DNA from: Psococerastis gibbosa
Taxonomy: Eukaryota > Arthropoda > Insecta > Psocodea > Psocidae
Length of the DNA stretch: 64,000 nucleotides
Assembly (NCBI GenBank): GCA_963971405.1
Contig: OZ020491.1
Span: forward strand, 33,841,019-33,905,018
Direction: 5' to 3'
Shown here: piece by piece, positions 4,936 to 16,160 of the stretch
How positions within the stretch are numbered: position 1 is the stretch's first letter
Layout of the letters: each line of letters begins with the position of its first letter
Program-made: the position numbers and the translations under genes
Notes under the pieces: model-generated
The model's database searches: none
What the model saw: only the letters and a program-made list of their open reading frames with translations
What the model was told of the DNA's origin: nothing

Positions 4936-5295
4936 TTATTTCCCCGCGATTTGTCTTCCCGTTGTCGTCTCCTGTCTTAGGGGCCTTTCCCATATTAGTT
5001 ATTTGTCTATGGGCCTAGCCATCAATCGACAGCGCCTAAACTTACAATCGCTAACAGTGTGACGAAGTTACAATAGGATATTTATTTCATTTCCGTAAGG
5101 TACAATTCAATGTAGGACGTAGATTCTAGATGTTGTCAATAATAAATAGCCTAAAAAAAATTAGTTGTTTTAAATAGTCTAAATTATAAATTCCTGCACG
5201 GAGTAGGGGCAACTCTCCGCATTAAATGCATTCATTCATATTTTCATCCATGGTTAAAAAAGTTTAGATAGTTAAAAAAGATTTTTCGTTCTTTA

Positions 5296-5437
5296 GGGGG
5301 GTATTCCACATACGTACAACGTCAATAAAAATTATGAAATTGATGGTGGCAGCAGAATTTTTAGTATGTAAAAATGTCTGCTGCCACCATCAATTTCATA
5401 ATTTTCATTGACGTTGTACGTATGTGGAATACCCCCC
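5296..5437. mobile_element. Palindromic (fold-back) MITE, 142 bp
   Basis: Two arms of about 62 bp, almost perfectly complementary, start GGGGGGTATTCCACATACG and end with the reverse complement. They are separated by about 18 bp. TTA lies at both ends (5293-5295 and 5438-5440). It is nested in the Harbinger-like element. Confidence 0.85.
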
Positions 5438-6081
5438 TTAGACGCCATCCTTATTCTGTGCATCAAAAGTTGATTTTGAATTTTTTTTGCTAATATTTCT
5501 TTCTCTTGCCACTTAATAGACGTGGCACAAGCCAAGAAATATTTGAGTGTGTAATACCTTCATTTTTCAAAAAAAATTGGGCCCAATATTTCTTCGGTCG
5601 AATATTTATTGGATCGAATAAATATTCGAGTGTGTAATCGGGGGGAATGAAATAATTGAATTATTAGATAATTTATGAATAAAAATTATTAAAAAATATT
5701 TCTGAATGATATTTATTATTTTTAATTTAATTATTTTTAATTTAATTATTTATAAATGATTATATAATTAATTTAATAATATTTAATTATTCATTTAATT
5801 AATAACATTTATTTATAATAATGTTTTTTTAGGGGAATTTCGCCGTAATTGTAGGGATTTTAGGGGTTTTTGGTTGGAGCTTTAGGGAGAAAACATTTTG
5901 AGAGTTGGGAACACTGATCGGGACAGTCAGTGAGGTTCATTTGGCAGATGGCAGCACCTGCAACAATGATATCTAAAACATTGTCTTCTGCTTCAAAGCA
6001 TTGATTTTTCCATATGTCTTAATAATATTTTTCAAATCTTTTATTTATATATTATTTTGAAGTGATATTTTGATATAAATC

Positions 6082-8764
6082 ATGGAGAAATATAGAGAGT
6101 TAACTGTTGCGGATTTGAGAAACGAGTTAAAGAAGGTTAATGCCAAATTAACAGGTAGAAAAGAAGAGTTGATAGAAAGGTTGTTCTACTACCATTCGAA
6201 CAAGAACTTCGGGCATTGCTCTGATGACCGTCATCCAGCAATGGAATTGCAAGGGCTTCCACCCAAAATAAATTATAGTGATGTACATTCTGGCACGGTG
6301 TTACCTTCAGTGACAGTGATGAAAGTGTTGGGCTACCTTAGAGTCAACGGGAAGAATGTCATCGACTCCAAGGCGCAAGACTTGTACCGCAACGGCCACT
6401 TAAACTTCTTGCAACACTGTGGAAACTATGTAAAAAGCAATGTATCGGCGCAAATGAAGAAATATGTTTCTTACGAGGTGAGCTAAGCTACCAGACCCAT
6501 AATCAAGGCCAAGTCAGGAGTGTATACTTCTTTAATTGCGACTAAGAATTGAAAGAAATTTGACACTGTTCACAAATTCATTCCTGGTCGGGCAGTATAT
6601 TTAGTTATTACGAAACACTTTCCTATTATTAATAAACTAGGTGTAGCCGTTTTGTCATTTGTGGTATCCTCAGGTTACTTCATTGAATGCACCGTACAAT
6701 ATGATCTGTAAATCAAAAACTGAAACATATTTATCAGAAGCAGAGACCTTTTTTACATGGTTGGTATTTTATGTTACATCCAAAGATAGGGTCCTTACAA
6801 AATGTACATGAAAACGAAAGTTTGCGCATTGTAGGTACTGTAGGAAGAATTGTAAATGAAATCCTATGCGCTGTTGCCAGCAGTCCGCATTCCAATCAAA
6901 GACATATTCAATATTATAATAGCCATGTGTATAAGATATGTGTTAGAATTACATATAAGGAATCTACAAATTTATTTTAATTCTAGGTTAATATAGTCTT
7001 GCAAGACTGCGGGGAAGTCGCAATCTGCCAATGCGAATGCCCAGTAGGAAGTGCTCCAGCAGCCCACTGCAAACACGTAACAGCGACTCTAGTGGGTTTG
7101 TGTGATGCTGTTAATGGTTTACCTGTCATCACAAAGCAGACATGTACAAGCCAGATCCAATCATTTCACCGCCCAAGAAAAGCCCATTCTTCTTCGCCAG
7201 TGAAAGCTGAAAACCTTGGGATCCGAAATCCAAACGATGTTGGCAACGATGTCACTGAGCCCGGCTTCTCGTCTAGATTTTACAGCAGGTTGAACAATTA
7301 TGCGGCGCTCTCCCCGAGAAATGGCAAAATGGGACTAAGCGCGATGGTGGAACCTGCCAACATGCGTGCAGTTGATGAGGACCACGACTATTTCGCCCTA
7401 AAATGGTCCGAGAAATTTCTTGATGAACTGCACCTTTTTAAGGTAAAGTGATATTTCGTATGTATAGTAATTAATACAATATAATAATTCGCACACTGCT
7501 TAACAGTGGTTTGGTGAAATAAAATGTATCGCTATGGAGCCACCGAGGTACAGCCTTCGAAGTCTACGCAGCGCCACTGAAGATGTCGACCGCAGATGTT
7601 GACGAAACGCTTGGAAGTTCGCTTTCATTTCATCAGCCCGGATTCTACTGGTTCTTCATGTCACCAATTGAATATGCCTTTGGCTCATCATGAAGAAGGC
7701 ATTAACCAAAAAGAGCCCGAAGACATAGAAAGAACTGATGAAGGCCCTCCCAGATGTGTGGAGTGGTATTGCACCAGCGATGTACTGTAATCTTGTTTCT
7801 TCAATGCCCAAAAAAATTGCCGCTGTTATAAAAAACAATGGAAGGGTACTGATATACAATTCACTTTGACTGTGCGAACTATTACGCCTCGCCAGTAAAG
7901 TTGATGGAACAAATATTAATTCTGAATTGTTAATGTGCATTATGTTTGAAGGTTATGTTGCTAGATGTACTTTATCATGTCCTCTATCGATCGATAGCAA
8001 GTATTGTTTATAATATTATCTATTAAGATGATTATTAAAAATATCCCGTACAATGCACAAGTTAGCGAGCTATGGGGCGGATCAAACTGTAAATAATAAT
8101 GTCTTGTTTCTTTTAGATTACTAAGGAGCAAATCAGTGATTTTGAGAAGAAAACCAGGCAACAAAGTGAGTCAAATCTGTGGCGGTGCCTAAGAGAGGTC
8201 CGTATTACAGCCTCAAAAGCAGGACCGGTGTTCAAGTCAACTGATAAAAATACATGGATTGCTAAGTCCATTGTATCACCCTCCTACTTTACATCAAAGT
8301 ACACCGTCCATGGCCAAATATATGAGAAAGAGGCAATCCGTTGCTATGAGGTGGCAACTGGTACTACAGTAACGAAGTGTGGATTCTTCATCCATCCAAC
8401 TATGCCATTTGTGGGCGCATCGCCTGATGGCTTAATTGGGGGCTCTGGAATCCTTGAGGTGAAATGCCCGTTTACATCAAAAGGAAAGAGAATTACCCCG
8501 GTCACCGTGCCTTATTTAATGTATGATGCTGATGGCTCTCTGACTCTAGATAGCAGTCACGACTACTACTTCCAAATTATGTGTCAGATGGATGTGACTG
8601 GCCGAGATTTTTGCCATTTCTTTGTTTATACGTTAGTGGACCATGTTCTGATATCAGTGCCAAAGTGTGATGTTGTTGTGAAAAGAATGCGGGACAGATT
8701 CCTCACATTTTTCCAAAATAAATTGCGGCCTGAAATATTACAGCAAAAATTTTACAGACAATGA
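6082..8764 (+). CDS. SAP-SWIM-YqaJ nuclease, three exons, transposon-associated
   Basis: Exons are 6082-6477, 6987-7442 and 8117-8764. Donors are GTGAGC and GTAAAG, and acceptors are TTCTAG and TTTTAG. All junctions are phase 0, giving 499 residues with no stop. Residues 1-40 are a SAP DNA-binding domain (LTVADLRNELKK, then TGRKEELIERL). A SWIM zinc finger starts exon 2 (CQCECPVG, about ten residues, then CKH). Exon 3 is a YqaJ-type exonuclease domain: WRCLREVRITASKAG, HGQIYEKEAIRCYE, then FVGASPDGLIG and ILEVKCPF, which supply the catalytic D and ExK. Such nucleases occur as second proteins of ISL2EU-type DNA transposons. A THAP-DDE transposase lies convergently at 13.8-15.9 kb. Exon 1 continues in frame past a TAA at 6484 with protein-like sequence, so its 3' end is the least certain boundary. 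Intron 2 holds a Penelope-like module. Confidence 0.85.
7537..7658 (+). mobile_element. Solo Penelope-like terminal module in intron 2 of the nuclease gene
   Basis: It contains GAAGTCTACGCAGCGCCACT, the CTGAAGATGTCGAC...GTTGACGAAACG hairpin core, and ends CCCGGATTCTACTGGTTC. The same module bounds the Penelope-like element at 9.5-11 kb. A fossil; no coding part is present here. Confidence 0.65.
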
Positions 8765-8803
8765 TTCAAAAACATATTGTAATCATCAGCTGCATTGTCT
8801 TGG

Positions 8804-8809
8804 AATAAA
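8804..8809 (+). terminator. Poly(A) signal of the nuclease gene
   Basis: AATAAA stands 40 bp after the stop codon of the SAP-SWIM-YqaJ gene. Confidence 0.6.
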
Positions 8810-8814
8810 TTAAT

Positions 8815-9479
8815 ATAATTGCGTTATATAGAAACATGGGCAGGACCACCAATGCATGTCAGTTCAGTAGGTAACGCCATCTCTACTTGCCTAGCTATAC
8901 GTAAGCAGAAAACGACCGTCAGATGTGCCAATGGCGTCTTCAAAGTAGCTGAGCTTCTGAGGAATGCCTTATGGTCTCAGAGGCGAAGACGCGAAAATCC
9001 CTATTCTGTACCTCCTCGTGGTGAAGATGGAAGCGCGTAATGGCGACTAAACAGATAGGGGACCGAGTTTGAGCCGGGATAAGCGAAAAACACAGTCTTT
9101 TCTGTGCTGGACTCTCTTTGTCCGGGGGTTGGGAAACTGGCCCCGAATGCTGTGGAATTCAATGACTGTCAACGGCATGAGGATGAAGAAAGTAGCGGAA
9201 ATCCACTGCAGTATAATTCCCTAGTATAACCATCATGGCTACAACTGCATTGATGATCGCCAATCTTCTATAGAAGAGGCATAAGAAGAATAGGTGTTGA
9301 CAGTGTTAGTATAAATATGTGGTGCTTACATGAATGTACCCTCATTCCTTGTTGAAAGCTCCTCTTAATCATTACCATGTGTAGAAGTCCCATTCGTCCA
9401 TGATCCTAGTCTACTTGGAAGATTTCTCTCTGAGTTGACGCTAAATAAGCCATAATATGAGCAATGTTCCAATAATGAA
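8815..9479. other. Unclassified repeat-like sequence
   Basis: No intact frame. Parts such as AAATCCACTGCAGTATAATTCC near 9200 and GACGCGAAAATCCCTATTCTG near 8990 read like the untranslated part of a dispersed LINE, but I cannot place the family. Confidence 0.25.
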
Positions 9480-9738
9480 GAACCAGTAGAATACGGGCTG
9501 ATGGGCCGTGGTCGAAATGAAACGAACTTCCAAACGTTTCGTCAACACCTGCGGTCGACATCTTCAGTGGAACTGCGTAGACTTCTAAGATTGTATCTCG
9601 GAGGCTCAGCAGCGACTGTGAGGGCAGGGGGATGTGCTCTGAAAGTTATACTAAGCTGCGGGGTGGTGGGGGGTGATCCTCGCTCCTGATTGGCTCCCTA
9701 CTTCGACCACGGCCCATCAGCCCGGATTCTACTGGTTC
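9480..9738 (-). repeat. Inverted Penelope-like terminal module with 35-bp inverted ends
   Basis: The left arm 9480-9514 (GAACCAGTAGAATACGGGCT...) and right arm 9704-9738 are reverse complements with one mismatch. Between them, on the minus strand, lies the CTGAAGATGTCGACCGCAGG...GAAACG core and the GTCTACGCAGTTCC motif. Confidence 0.7.
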
Positions 9739-10879
9739 TTCTATGAACAATTGGATGGAGTCGCGATGGGTAGTCCAATCAGTCCAGTATTCGCTAGCTT
9801 CTACAAGGGGGTTCTTTGAAAATACGGCTTTAAACTCAGCCCCTCTACAACCGAAATGTTGGTTCCGGTATGTTGATGACACCTTCGTGGTATGGAGTCA
9901 TGGCCAAAAGAACCTGGAGAATTTCCTGAATCATATAAACTCGGTTCATGCGAACATCCAATTCACGATGGAACAGGAGAACAATGGCCGGTTGGCTTTT
10001 CTTGATGTGTTGGTAACGAGGAAAGAAGACTGAACTCAGGGCCACGTAGTGTATCGAAAACCGACCCACACGGATAGATACTTGAACAAGAACTCTAACC
10101 ATCATCCGAGCCAAAAACGAGCCATGATAAAGACACTCATCCACCGTGCCAATAGGATCTGCGAACCAACATTCCTGCAACAAGAACTGAAGCACTTAGG
10201 CACGACACTGCAATTGAATGGATAAAGCGCACGAGAAATAGCCCGCGCCATCCGACCCCGCATGAATAAGTCCGCTCGGCAAGACGCACCCCCAAGTACT
10301 ACTGGCCTACTCTGCCTTCCGTTCATCAAAGGAGTCTCAGATCGTATAGGTAAACTCTTCTTACCGCACAATGTGAAGACTATTTACAAGCCTACGCGAA
10401 AATTAAATAGTTTGTACAGATCAGCCAAGGATAGGTGGGACCCGAGGTGCTTACAGGATTCCGTGTTCGTGTGGAGAAGTTTATATAGGTACTACAAAAC
10501 GAAGCTTAAAAACCAGGATTGATGAACATAAACGAAACTGCCATCTTCTACAGTCGGAGAAGTCTGCAATCGCTGAGCCTGTTCCAACACAAACCGGTCA
10601 CATAATACAGTTCCAAGATGCTACAGTACTTTCTACAACTTCTTCATACCACCCCCGGTTACACAGAGAGGCTATAGAGATCTAAAAGCAACCGCATAAC
10701 TTCAATAGAAAGGAAGAAGGACTAAAGGTCAATAGAATTTGGTATCCAGCCTTAAAGAAGACTATAGCAAAGAAACTGGTGTCATCATCCGGAAATCAGG
10801 TTGAGGTAGTAAGGGGTAGTATTAGAGTAGTAAGGAGCCAAACAGGGGTGAGTATGACTCCCCCACCACCCCGTAGCTT

Positions 10880-10886
10880 AGTATAA
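10880..10886 (+). promoter_or_regulatory. Possible TATA box in the Penelope-like terminal module
   Basis: GTATAAAAA stands upstream of the conserved CAGAGCACATCCCCCTGCCC stretch that is shared with the inverted left module. Confidence 0.25.
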
Positions 10887-11159
10887 AAATCAGAGCACAT
10901 CCCCCTGCCCTCACAGTCGCTGCTGAGCCTCCGAGATACAATCTTAGAAGTCTACGCAGTTCCACTGAAGATGTCGACCGCAGATGTTGGCGAAACGTTT
11001 GGAAGTTCGTTTCATTTCGATTTCGTGAAAGCCTTTGCTGTTACAATGTTCCAACAAGTGTACGTCCATGTCATGTGTTTAATTCTTGTAAACTCTTTGA
11101 AAAAGCTTATTATTGTTATTCTTATCATCATTGTCACACCAACACCACTTCACCAACTC

Positions 11160-11340
11160 TGTGGCTCGCCAGACGTCATACAAAAGAAGGCTCGAGTGGA
11201 TGGGGCACGTCGTCCGTATGCCAGCAGAAAAAACAGGACATGCAGTATGGGTGGCATGTCCCAACCTTTGGGCCGAGACGACGGTATGGCGACCAGCTAA
11301 AGGAAGATGTGCAGGAATTTGCGTGGTGTTGTAAATGCGG
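11160..11340 (+). pseudogene. LINE 3' end fragment
   Basis: One frame gives YKRRLEWMGHVVRMPAEKT. The neighbouring frame gives GPRRRYGDQLKEDVQEFAW. Together these match the C-terminal tail common to LINE reverse-transcriptase proteins (RRL.W.GHV.RMP, then GRP..RW..QV..DL..F). The two parts are in different frames, so the fragment is decayed. Confidence 0.6.
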
Positions 11341-11439
11341 CCAAAAGTCCCCCCCCCCCCCTGACAGCGCCAACTTAAGCAAGTTATTAATTACTGATAT
11401 ACTATGCATCAATAAAATAATATGCAAATCCTAAGGATT

Positions 11440-12360
11440 ATCTTTCAACCTTATCAATAGAATCACCTATATACAGCTACAATTCTAATGAATATATATT
11501 GTATGTTTCCGTGCTCGGTGCCTGTAAGTGCGAAGGCTCTTGTATAGACTCTAATCTGGACTCTGAGATAGGGGTATTTCCAAGCCATATACTATAGTTT
11601 ATTATTAATGCATTTATGGGCTTGCATGTATATGTATAATACCACACATTCATTAATGCACCTTAGTAGACAGTAGTAGCAGTATTCGTCGGGTTAATAG
11701 TGAGTTAGGCCTAAAATTTGGACCCATAGAGCGACTTGACTGTCCTATGCCAGCCCACAGGGCTGTGGACCTCCTGCTTATAGTGGGTTCCGAACCACTT
11801 GGGAAACACAGTGAAGTCACACGATTAGTTCGGAGGTGACTAGGACAAGTCATGTTTTCCTACCGGCACTGTGCACGCGACCAAGTTATCTGCAGCTTTG
11901 AACCTGCTCTTGTCTGCTGGATTCAACTGGTGGCCGGCTATTAATTCACCTTACCACCTAGCACAGATTGGAGCACCAGCCTGGGTGATCTCGTCCTCAC
12001 GACCTGCTTGCTAACGCGTACAACCCCGAGGGAGTTTATAGTAGCATCCAGCATCAACTGGATGGTGGGATTTCCATCCGGCTTCAGCCCCGCTACAAGT
12101 AACTGGCGCTGTATTGGAACCGTATGGGGGTCTCTAACAGTGGGAAGTTGGATGCTAACACTCCCCCCTCCCGAGGTAGCAGGCGCCTTCTGGAGCTGGG
12201 TGAAACATCCCTATTTGGATTGGTTTGGACCATCAAACTCGTCACTACCTCTACGTCGTCAGCATGTGTGAAGAGGGTGCTGAGGGTAAGGACGAGGTGG
12301 GCATGGCTATTCCAGCATAGGTTTACATTGCCAACCTCTGAAAAAGTAACCAAGTAGCCT
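11440..12360. other. Unassigned region
   Basis: No gene is recognised. GC content rises at 11700-12300, and short open frames on both strands overlap there without family features. Confidence 0.3.
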
Positions 12361-12394
12361 ACGTGAGGACTACCACGGATAGGCACTTAGTAAG

Positions 12395-12700
12395 AACAGG
12401 TACCTACCGACTACCTGGGAACCCTAGTAAGGGCAGATAACCTAGTACAGGAGGTGCCAACTACCTAGTAGAGGTACCTAGGATGAGCAGCTTACCTAGT
12501 TGAGTAAGTACTGACTACCTATAAGAGCTTACCAAGCAAACTAGGTGGGAACTACCTAATAGGCTAGATTTTACACATCCTAACTCGGTGATGGCCACTA
12601 TTTAACTATTTTTTTAAATAAGGTTAATTGCATACAAATTCAATGAATGTATCCGATTAACCTCTTCAGTCGCCTCACTAAGTTACCTAATAGGTACTTG
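12395..12700. repeat. Degenerate ACCTA(G) motif cluster
   Basis: TACCTA, ACCTAG or the inverse CTAGGT recur roughly every 10-30 bp (near 12402, 12411, 12430, 12464, 12474, 12492, 12515, 12540, 12551 and 12684). The sequence between is unrelated. Origin unknown: decayed short tandem repeat or motif array. Confidence 0.4.
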
Positions 12701-12790
12701 TGTCGAGTTACGACACGTCTCCGACCGCATGGCATGTACAGACAGTACAAGTACAAGCACGCTACCACCTGGCAATCGAAGTCGTTTTAA
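12664..12790 (-). mobile_element. tRNA-derived SINE, degraded
   Basis: On the minus strand it reads GGTGGTAGCGTGCTTGTACT, an A-box-like head, then TGCGGTCGGAGACGTG. It is homologous over about 110 bp to the minus-strand copy at 30963-31075. Confidence 0.5.
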
Positions 12791-12827
12791 AGGTAATTAG
12801 GTGCGTATAACTAAAGAAGAAAAATAA

Positions 12828-13435
12828 AAGTGTACTTGGTTGTAGGTATATAGTTTAATTGGTGAATATGTGATAACATTGGTTGATGTAACTAGGTTTG
12901 AAATTGGTTGTTATTTGTTGTGTTATTGTATTGTTAAACCAAAAGCTTCGTGTCCCATTTACATAGATTAACATCACCTTTTGTACTTGGTGACCCTTCA
13001 CTTGGTCATTTTTGAGCCATTTCAACCAATGTGATGAATCAGTAGAATCTGGGATGATAGGCCGTGGTCCTTCTGAAAGTGTACTTTCAAACGTTTCGTC
13101 AACATCTTCAGTAGAACTGCGTAGACTTCTAAGATTGTATCTCGGAGGCTCAGCAGCAAGTACGCTGGAAGTACACTTTCAGAACGACCACGGCCTATCA
13201 TCCCGGATTCTACTGATTCATCACGCCTTTGTAATTATGTTGTATTTACATTTCAACCAAGTTCAAACTTGGTCAAGCACAATAGTTACTGTCACTAAGT
13301 CACTCATCAAGCTCTGCATGCTTCACCAAGTAGGCCTAGACGCAAATGTTGCAGTTACCTAATTTTACTTGGTTGCTAAAAAATGACCAATTTTTTTAGG
13401 TTATCAGGACCATTACCTATATCTATCATTATCAC
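12828..13435. repeat. ACTTGGT-rich region containing a Penelope-like module
   Basis: ACTTGGT/ACCAAGT-type words recur (12834, 12986, 12999, 13257, 13266, 13326, 13368 and variants). The interval is split by the Penelope-like module at 13032-13223. No gene seen. Confidence 0.35.
13032..13223 (-). mobile_element. Palindromic Penelope-like terminal module
   Basis: Inverted arms of about 55 bp (TGATGAATCAGTAGAATC... and its complement) enclose, on the minus strand, the GTCTACGCAGTTCTACTGAA motif with a shortened hairpin core ending GAAACG. It is the same design as 9480-9738. Fossil fragment. Confidence 0.65.
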
Positions 13436-13439
13436 TGAC

Positions 13440-13665
13440 CATAACTCATAATCCAATGGGTGTTAAGGTCTGAGCTACTAGAGGGCCATTCTTTTGATAA
13501 ACTTCTTGATAAACTGAGGCACATTGAGCTGCAGCCACTTGTGGGTGTTTTTGGCTTTGTGACAAAGGGCAGAGCTGGAATACCCACTTCTGGCCATTGA
13601 ACATGGTCTGGGTGAAAGGCTTCCCATAAGGCTTAAGAATCTGTCTCATGGTGCACATTACCACC
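13440..13665 (-). pseudogene. mariner-type transposase C-terminal remnant
   Basis: Minus-strand pieces KPYGKPFTQTMFNGQKWVFQ and then GPLVAQTLTPIGL (a decayed DLNPLD tail) match the end of a mariner transposase. Compare the better preserved remnant at 50.5-50.9 kb (FHRQQWVFQQD, DLNPLDY). Confidence 0.6.
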
Positions 13666-13839
13666 CTTCTTATGGTTAAAGGTTAATGGTGTAATACTAT
13701 TATTAATAAAATACAATAGATAGACAATGTAAGAATGAGTAGCATAAGAGAAAGATTTACCTTTCAAATACAGAGGAGTAAACTTTTGTAACAGAACATA
13801 TAGCCAGAATAAGTAAGCACCTGTTAACACCTCTTATCA

Positions 13840-15171
13840 TCAAGCAAATGAGCTGACAATGTTACTTCTGAAGTTGCAAAGCATACAAGAAATGTAAATA
13901 ATTTCATGACCAATTTCTGTCTCAAATCTATTTAGTGGACCTCTCAGAATTTTATATGTTTTTACGAGGCCAATTACTCTTTCAATATGCACCCTCTTGG
14001 ATGCAATTTTTCGGTCGCGTTTCACTGTCAGCCCACTCAATTGGTTTTTTCCTGTCATAAAAGTTGGTATGTTTACGGTAACGCCATAAGGGGCAAAGAC
14101 GTCTTGTACATCAAAGCCCTTATCAGCCATCACGGAGTCACCCGGCTCGCATTTCGACATTAAGTCGCTCCTTTCTATAATTTGGCGATCACTGGCGCTT
14201 CCGCCATATGTGTTGGAAATATATGTTATCATGCCAGAAGGGCTACAACCTAAAATAGTTTTCAAAGTGTTCCTATTCTTATAAGTTGAAAATGAAGCAC
14301 TTTGCTTATTGCAATTGGAGGCCCTTTGAATTGGAATTTCCATTCCATCTAAAATCACTCGCGTATCAGGAAACTTTCTTTTAAAGTCTTTGGGGATATG
14401 GTACTTTATTAGACTCTTACTTGGCCACAAGTTTACCTGTGACCAAACCCTATACATAAAATTTATCCAAACCCTCAGTAACTTACTAACCAAGGACTCA
14501 GATATATTAAAATAAAATGCTAGTATAGTATTGGTCTGGTACAACCGAAATTTTATCAGCACCATGAGGAATTGGTCGTGTATACTTAACTTACAATTCT
14601 TAAAGGAGTCTACTTCAGGGCAGAAGTCTATTTCCAACGAATTGTACACTAAAAAAATTTTTTCAGCTGTTTCCAAACCGGTGAAGACATGCAGATATTT
14701 CTGATTGTGCAACAGGTGGTCAATAGTTATTCGAAAATGCGCAATAGGCCCTTTGTGCATGGTTTGACAACCACTGTCACGAGTACCCCCAAAATCAATA
14801 TTCTGGGAAGCATCGACAGCTGGAGGTGATAGGGCAATCTCCACTTCCATACGTTCCACACTTTTTATGGCCTCATCTCTTTCTTCGTCCCTTTTCCTTA
14901 GTATTTCTTCTTCTGCTACTTTTCGTTTTGATGCAAGATATTGCCGGTTCTTAGTAGCTTGCGTTTTGTGCTCTTTGTCGACATTTAACTAAAACAAAAC
15001 ACCAATAAAAAATCCTTTCAAATAGAAATAAATTGTCATCTGTACTCGATTATAGGTTTCTGATGTTCTTGACCCGTGTCACTTTGTGGAGAAATCCATC
15101 GAGATTACGCGTAGTCAAGATATTACTACATAATAATATTTTTATAATGCGGGTTACTTACCTTATACTAT

Positions 15172-15204
<33 letters not shown>

Positions 15205-15898
15205 CTTGTATTTCTCAACATTATTGACACAACATAATAATGTAGACCCCCTTAACATATAATGGTGTGCGGGGTACCTAGGTGTCACCATGATGTGGAT
15301 TAGAAAGAATCAAATATCAAAAAATAAAAAATACAGGTTACACTTTAAAAATTAATTGCTAGTCTTGTCAGAAGTGTGAATGCCAACTGCCAAGCACAAA
15401 CCTAACAATGTGTAGGGGCTAATATAAGTTGAGCTGCATTACAGCTACAATACACTATGCTATGTATCGTCTTGTAGGTGCAAGCTTTCACCATGAGTCT
15501 TCAGCTAATATTAATTCTAAAATTAGGATTAGACTTATTGGAAGGATTATAATTAAAGCCTGATAGTAAAATTTTATACAGCAGGAGACTGACCAAATCA
15601 AATTGCTAATGCAGTGCATTAAATGTAAACATTCGTGCTAAAAGTATGGTATTACCTTAAATACAGATGGCACAGACCCAGGCTTCAACCTGTGTATTAA
15701 CAGAGGAATTCCGTATGCGTTCTCTTTAATAAAATCGCTTGGCATAAAATGGTCTTTGCATACCATGGAATACATGGACGGCGTAAAGTTTTTCCTGCGT
15801 ATTGCCGTTATCCACTTCTTCTTTATCTTTTCGTTTTTTGGAAATCGAAATCCACCCCTATTGCTACAATTATATGCAACGCAATAAGCTCCAGGCAT
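13840..15898 (-). CDS. THAP-DDE_Tnp_4 transposase, two exons, apparently intact
   Basis: Exon 1 is 15898-15656 (81 codons). Exon 2 is 14988-13840 (stop included). They join in phase 0 with donor AAG/GTAATA and acceptor TTTTAG, giving 463 residues. Exon 1 is a THAP zinc finger: YCVAYNCSN, FRFPKNE, KKWITAIRR, then VCKDHF and the closing PSVF. Exon 2 begins with a charged coiled-coil-like stretch (SKRKVAEEEILRKRDEERDE), then a helix-turn-helix-like region. The DDE_Tnp_4 core follows: VILDGMEIPI (first Asp), ASDRQIIERS, SVMADKGFDVQD (second Asp), and RVHIERVIGLVKTYK (Glu). THAP plus DDE_Tnp_4 is the arrangement of ISL2EU-type transposases that cut and paste DNA. The convergent SAP-SWIM-YqaJ gene is the likely partner. 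All catalytic positions are present, so the enzyme may still be functional. Confidence 0.88.
15170..15203. repeat. (TAA)n microsatellite in the transposase intron
   Basis: About eleven ATA/TAA units. Confidence 0.9.
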
Positions 15899-15954
15899 AG
15901 TAAAAGTATTATAAAAAATATTAAAAGAATTAAACAGATCCTAAGAGCTTAGTT

Positions 15955-16160
15955 TTACATACAAACGGCGGCCATTTTGAATAATATGGATATCGGTTTG
16001 TCGTCAGCGAACCTAGTGACCAAAACTGTCCCTAAAGAACCTCGTTCTCTCAGTTGGCACCATAGATAACTAGACTCGTCACCGGGATAGGGATTCAGTT
16101 CGCGATAGCAGCGCCACGCCGCGCAGCGGAAATTTTTTCTCCGTCCACTTTCCTTGAACA
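15955..16160. other. Upstream/terminal region of the THAP-DDE element
   Basis: Read toward the gene (minus strand), it contains GGTTC, then GGGACAGT, then TCACTAGGTTC. The plus-strand sequence ahead of the nuclease gene (around 4107-4120 joined to 5925-5940) has GGTTC, GGGACAGT, TCAGTGAGGTTC. This may be part of inverted element ends. The exact terminus is not resolved. Confidence 0.35.
16109..16153. repeat. Short direct repeat, copy at 16.1 kb (partner 17251-17295)
   Basis: Both copies share AGCGCC, a GC-rich CGCG stretch, GCGGAA, an A/T run and TCTCCGTCCACTT. They may mark ends of related elements. Confidence 0.4.

Follow-up and report, generated by a model that had tools for sequence, protein, structure and literature searches.

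A recently active two-gene ISL2EU transposon of Psococerastis gibbosa and the possible role of its YqaJ nuclease

In a stretch of 64,000 nucleotides of the Psococerastis gibbosa genome (assembly GCA_963971405.1, contig OZ020491.1, positions 33,841,019 to 33,905,018; hereinafter the window, with position 1 as its first letter), a transposase gene and a nuclease gene converge, which raises two questions: whether both genes belong to a single mobile element and, if so, what the nuclease could contribute to transposition. Given the domains of the two proteins, the ends, the target duplications, the empty sites, the genome-wide linkage and the gene pair itself, it appears almost certain that positions 5932-16043 (Table 1) are a two-gene, recently active cut-and-paste transposon of the ISL2EU group within the PHIS superfamily.

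Table 1. Coordinates of the element and its parts in the window
Feature	Position	Strand	Evidence
Target-site duplication GT, 5' copy	5930..5931	.	Single GT at the join in paralogous L051, L052
Whole ISL2EU element, 10,112 bp	5932..16043	+	Ends common to 14 other copies
5' terminal inverted repeat, GAGGTTCATTTGG	5932..5944	+	11/13 pair with 3' end; first 7 perfect
Nuclease exon 1, with SAP domain (aa 4-34)	6082..6477	+	Gene model, Pfam
Nuclease exon 2, with SWIM-like CxC..CxH motif	6987..7442	+	Gene model, motif, L053 alignment
Nuclease exon 3, YqaJ / lambda-exonuclease domain, stop included	8117..8764	+	Gene model, Pfam, structure matches
Passenger DNA between genes, ~4.4 kb	8800..13240 (limits approximate)	.	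Repeats; in other copies, shortened in L018
Transposase exon 2, HTH_Tnp_4 + DDE_Tnp_4, stop included	13840..14988	-	Gene model, Pfam
Transposase exon 1, THAP domain	15656..15898	-	Gene model, Pfam
3' terminal inverted repeat, GAGGTTCTTTAGG on - strand	16031..16043	-	Pairs with 5' end
Target-site duplication GT, 3' copy	16044..16045	.	

Both genes are located where a first-pass annotation, made from the sequence alone, had placed them, and its exon model proved right. The nuclease gene, on the plus strand, encodes 499 aa in three exons with no stop inside and with GT-AG introns of phase 0 (GTGAGC..TTCTAG and GTAAAG..TTTTAG); the transposase gene, on the minus strand, encodes 463 aa in two exons, likewise uninterrupted, around a phase 0 intron (GTAATA..TTTTAG). 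A different middle exon of the nuclease, within 6674-6986 (open frame 6705-6980), was considered and rejected: it has no Pfam match, and the relative L053, which consists of one open frame, aligns straight across the join of exons 1 and 2. All the domains that had been proposed for the two proteins and were searched in Pfam as SAP, YqaJ, THAP and DDE_Tnp_4 were matched, with E-values of 4e-15 for THAP, 3.8e-13 for HTH_Tnp_4 and 2.3e-39 for DDE_Tnp_4 in the transposase, and of 5.9e-9 for SAP, 4.7e-17 for YqaJ (the match on which the first reading depended) and 7.8e-12 for Viral_alk_exo in the nuclease. The proposed fusion of SAP with SWIM held for the SAP part only: Pfam SWIM had no match in the window nuclease at E 10, but a CxC..CxH motif (CQCECPVGSAPAAHCKH) is present and the corresponding region of L053 gives a weak Pfam SWIM match (E 0.2, below the cut-off), so that 'SWIM-like' is the safe wording.

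The search of solved structures with the nuclease retrieved the exonuclease 3syy, which we take to be LHK-exo, as the best match (E 1.6e-12), together with lambda exonuclease entries including 1avq (6.2e-6), and the phage relatives of the protein are the exonuclease and RecE-like families. Both the domain match and the D..ExK site that characterize the YqaJ / lambda-exonuclease family are found in the window nuclease; it shares with 1avq and 3syy the homologous domain with SPD..ExK, and these two proteins have, to our knowledge, no SAP or SWIM part. For the transposase, no match among solved structures was detected at E 0.1, and in NCBIfam it is similar to IS5 models with scores below their cut-offs. 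We compared six ISL2EU sequences of the same genome, namely window, B, D, E, E2 and G, which represent five deep lineages, with E and E2 being close. In agreement with the earlier view that the catalytic motifs are complete, the three DDE residues of the transposase and the SPD, ExKC, G....E pair and downstream Q of the nuclease are invariant in all six, and the compared pairs keep the nuclease active site at 21-38% identity, the nucleases themselves being 21-33% identical (58% for the close pair E/E2). Divergence of the transposases is correlated with that of the nucleases (0.81 over 15 pairs from the six sequences, a value reached in 31 of 720 permutations; as it is driven by the close pair E/E2, we give it no weight).

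The element extends beyond both genes (6082-15898), and its bounds were set with 14 other genomic copies. The terminal inverted repeats are 13 bp long with 2 mismatches, within the ISL2EU range of 6-259 bp, and the GAGGTTC ends are present in the window copy and in all 14 others. In 12 of these 14 the match to the window starts exactly at 5931; in L013 it starts at 5927, via a few flank bases in common with the window, and in L022 at 6532, the 5' end of this copy being located further off, at L037. In L015, L018 and L022 one end is several kb more distant than in the window, and the far end was paired by nearness and orientation. The target duplications of the 15 copies are AT/AT in 13, AT/TA in one (L017/L031) and GT/GT in the window copy, and the AT duplications are mostly preceded by A and mostly followed by T, as in A|AT|T. 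Furthermore, two paralogous places contain the window flanks joined by a single GT: in L051 both flanks are covered, but insertions set it apart immediately after the join and again farther along, and in L052 the first 15 bases after the join agree at 14 positions, with divergence beyond. The ends common to the copies and these single-GT empty sites jointly delimit the element to 5932-16043. The terminal ~170 bases of the element (15868-16040) recur at 93-95% identity in at least 20 other places among the best 40 of 1122 candidates; these are likely short non-autonomous relatives. Outside the element, at 5295-5438, the window contains two 68-bp arms in inverted orientation (96% identity), separated by 8 bases, and this inverted repeat also flanks the 5' end of the copy L020. 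On a 25-kb contig, two element copies are arranged head to tail with their 3' and 5' ends only AAT apart (L049, C26:22550-22800), which may be a true tandem or an assembly effect.

The linkage of the two genes was assessed throughout the genome (409 Mb, 68 contigs), with the best 150 of 219 YqaJ candidates being scored. Among these, 15 matches of the window nuclease exon, window included, have the same 215-aa open frame, and all 15 are convergent to a transposase within 15 kb. Altogether 73 of the 150 scored YqaJ matches have a convergent transposase within this distance, compared to 0.3 expected at random placement; in the other groups of open-frame length the convergent pairs number 13 of 16, 8 of 8, 26 of 31, 10 of 17 and 1 of 1, with none in the remaining 62. 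The shortfall in three of these groups (16-13, 31-26 and 17-10) amounts to 15 YqaJ matches of ISL2EU-type lengths for which no convergent transposase match was found within 15 kb. On the transposase side, 73 of 104 matches are paired with a nuclease, and the 31 unpaired ones comprise 2 on the small contig C26, one at C14:44956209 and 28 divergent matches. Given that only the best candidates are scored in both the YqaJ and the transposase searches, the linkage counts are lower bounds. Independent insertion boundaries for the two genes, which were specifically looked for, were not found in the window or in the 14 other copies: both genes lie within one pair of ends and have been multiplied together. 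Two independent elements that came to lie side by side by chance are ruled out for practical purposes by the ends shared in 15 copies and the linkage in 15 of 15, and the initial suggestion of an ISL2EU-type element with a YqaJ second protein is borne out by this linkage along with the strong YqaJ match.

The copies differ little from each other. The introns of the 14 other copies show 58 differences from the window in 16,502 aligned sites (0.35%), which implies a recent spread, and in sampled passenger stretches there are 55 in 41,574, mismatches only. In 6 of the 15 copies, the window included, the compared exons of both genes contain no stop or frameshift (a count that refers to these exons, with the start and splice sites of the non-window copies outside it). 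The transposase carries a stop or a length change in L013, L014, L017, L020, L021 and L022, nuclease exon 1 is gapped in L016, and in L015 and L018 an exon is cut or falls outside the fetched piece. Summed over the 14 copies, with exon 1 of L016 and L022 omitted, the nuclease differs from the window by 17 nonsynonymous and 5 synonymous changes, near the site ratio of 1175 to 322; with so few changes, selection on the nuclease is not seen at this within-family depth, and the differences between copies look neutral.

The extra length of the element results mostly from older repeats that were inserted between the genes and travel with it. Passenger repeats are found at 9475-9741, 10829-11020 and 13031-13224, along with a retroelement-like fragment, another genomic repeat at 11664-11928, and a related fragment within nuclease intron 2 (7529-7660). 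Across 14 element copies, that of the window among them, the stretch 9760-10700 shows 100% identity (rounded); outside the element copies, at least 26 full-length and 2 partial matches of 93% identity occur among the 42 places listed (best 40 of 487 candidates). One frame in this stretch gives a GIY-YIG match below the Pfam cut-off (19.5 vs 22.6 bits), and no Pfam match was obtained for its reverse-transcriptase-like frame; judging by its motifs, the retroelement-like fragment is putatively Penelope-like. One copy, L018 (C13:1626500-1636400), is devoid of the passenger stretch at ~9613-13032; its break falls within related repeats, which points to recombination between these repeats as the cause of the loss.

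The element is of a known kind because ISL2EU is defined by this very pair of a transposase and a YqaJ gene (Han et al., 2015; PMC4482050), a pair also given in PMC9179366, so that calling it an under-described system, as the first-pass annotation did, was an overstatement. According to PMC4482050, ISL2EU elements have a mean length of ~4.84 kb, an AT duplication in A|AT|T and inverted repeats that usually start with GG, and the function of the second ORF is stated to be unknown. The window element agrees with this description in the THAP-HTH-DDE transposase, in the separate YqaJ protein encoded within the same element, in the short inverted ends and, at the level of the family, in the AT duplications; it differs in its length of 10.1 kb, and the GT duplication of the window copy and the ends that begin with GAGG rather than GG count against the assignment. 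The PIF/Harbinger group, which is similar in having two genes and a related DDE transposase, is distinguished by a Myb/SANT second protein and a TWA duplication (PMC4482050), and the window element has neither.

The words SAP and SWIM are absent from the main text of PMC4482050, at variance with the SAP domain and the SWIM-like motif of the window nuclease. Our literature search found no report of a SAP domain with YqaJ, nor, in the portions of the sources available, of YqaJ with SWIM in a transposon. The CxC..CxH motif is present in four of the six compared nucleases (window, B, E and G); in D, as judged by eye, an intron interrupts it and the fit is looser, and in E2 it was searched for and not found. 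The genome search for SAP yielded 33 matches, of which 20 belong to the window family or are close fragments, 3 are diverged relatives of its 5' end and 10 are others; as read from the coordinates, one of these 10, L053, is located upstream of a YqaJ match. Given that L053 is the only other YqaJ match of the searched genome with a SAP domain nearby, SAP looks like a variable part of these nucleases. L053 (C20:21349850-21352700) is a second gene with SAP, SWIM-like and YqaJ parts, and no transposase match of the window type was found within 15 kb of it.

YqaJ nucleases of this genome are also associated with a different transposase. Among 63 other YqaJ matches that were tested, 59 follow a same-strand Mutator-like transposase match at a distance of up to 3 kb, and in 33 of these 59 cases the open frame reaches 700 aa or more (for example, L007, C1:2281891-2285334, with Mutator at 2.3e-65 and YqaJ at 3e-20). 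Of the four exceptions, one is the L053 gene, one is an ISL2EU-linked match, and two are decayed relatives of the window family, namely L048, which was read, and another that was judged from its 5' match. Like L007, the locus L043 (C1:24781500-24788500) encodes a Mutator-like transposase with a C-terminal YqaJ nuclease domain. Such a system resembles ISL2EU in combining, in the same genome, a transposase gene with the same nuclease domain but differs in that the transposase belongs to another Pfam family (PF20700) and that a single fused ORF takes the place of two genes. The two Mutator-linked YqaJ domains that were compared share 38% identity, against 24-31% with the ISL2EU domains; in the YqaJ tree they cluster together (0.97), and their position among the ISL2EU domains has support of at most 0.76. 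Taken with the ISL2EU pairs, this linkage indicates that two types of transposons share one kind of nuclease. No report linking lambda exonuclease with a eukaryotic DDE transposase was found in our literature search, nor, in the available portions of the sources, any on a YqaJ nuclease with a Mutator-like transposase. It is conceivable, if doubtful, that nucleases of the lambda-exonuclease type associate generally with eukaryotic DDE transposons and were joined at least twice to transposases of different families, as the second gene in ISL2EU and as a fused C-terminal domain in Mutator-like elements, because resection of the donor break turns cut-and-paste into a net gain of copies.

For the window element, knowledge of the family suggests that the THAP and HTH regions would bring the IS5-type DDE transposase to the element ends, which it would cut, inserting the element at A|AT|T-like targets. 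The nuclease, putatively a 5'-3' exonuclease of the lambda type that its SAP and SWIM-like parts would guide to the site, would then resect the double-strand break left by excision, and repair of the resected donor break from the sister copy would restore the element at the donor site and raise the copy number. That the nuclease acts in this way, favouring homologous repair and copy gain, is our tentative preference, based on sequence comparison. Spy, which is reported to be sister to ISL2EU, is active in human cells with a solitary ORF, so a nuclease is not needed for such chemistry in general.

Somewhat unlikely is a nuclease protein that serves mainly as a DNA-binding or assembly partner, with catalysis secondary, in the manner of the PIF/Harbinger Myb-like protein. 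The latter, the second protein in a group related to ISL2EU, attaches to the transposon ends and accompanies the transposase into the nucleus (PMC9179366), and the SAP and SWIM-like modules of the window nuclease would suit such a part, but THAP and HTH domains are already present in the transposase, and a role limited to binding is hard to reconcile with an exonuclease active site that is kept in the six nucleases despite their low identity.

Cutting with a 2-bp stagger produces short overhangs and gaps, and DNA ends are where exonucleases of the lambda type work, so the protein could instead process transposition intermediates, removing flaps or overhangs from the old or the new joint, with no resection for recombination. 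This appears quite improbable, given that Spy does without a second ORF and that four other PHIS groups use a Myb/SANT or unidentified second protein (PMC4482050).

What is already known here is the ISL2EU gene pair; less usual are the 10-kb length, the SAP domain and the linkage of YqaJ to Mutator-like transposases. The Mutator-like parallel hints that the role of the YqaJ partner may be in break repair and not in the recognition of particular ends. Since 6 of its 15 copies have no interruption of either gene in the exons compared, the young family is a test bed for the job of the YqaJ partner, the question left by PMC4482050.
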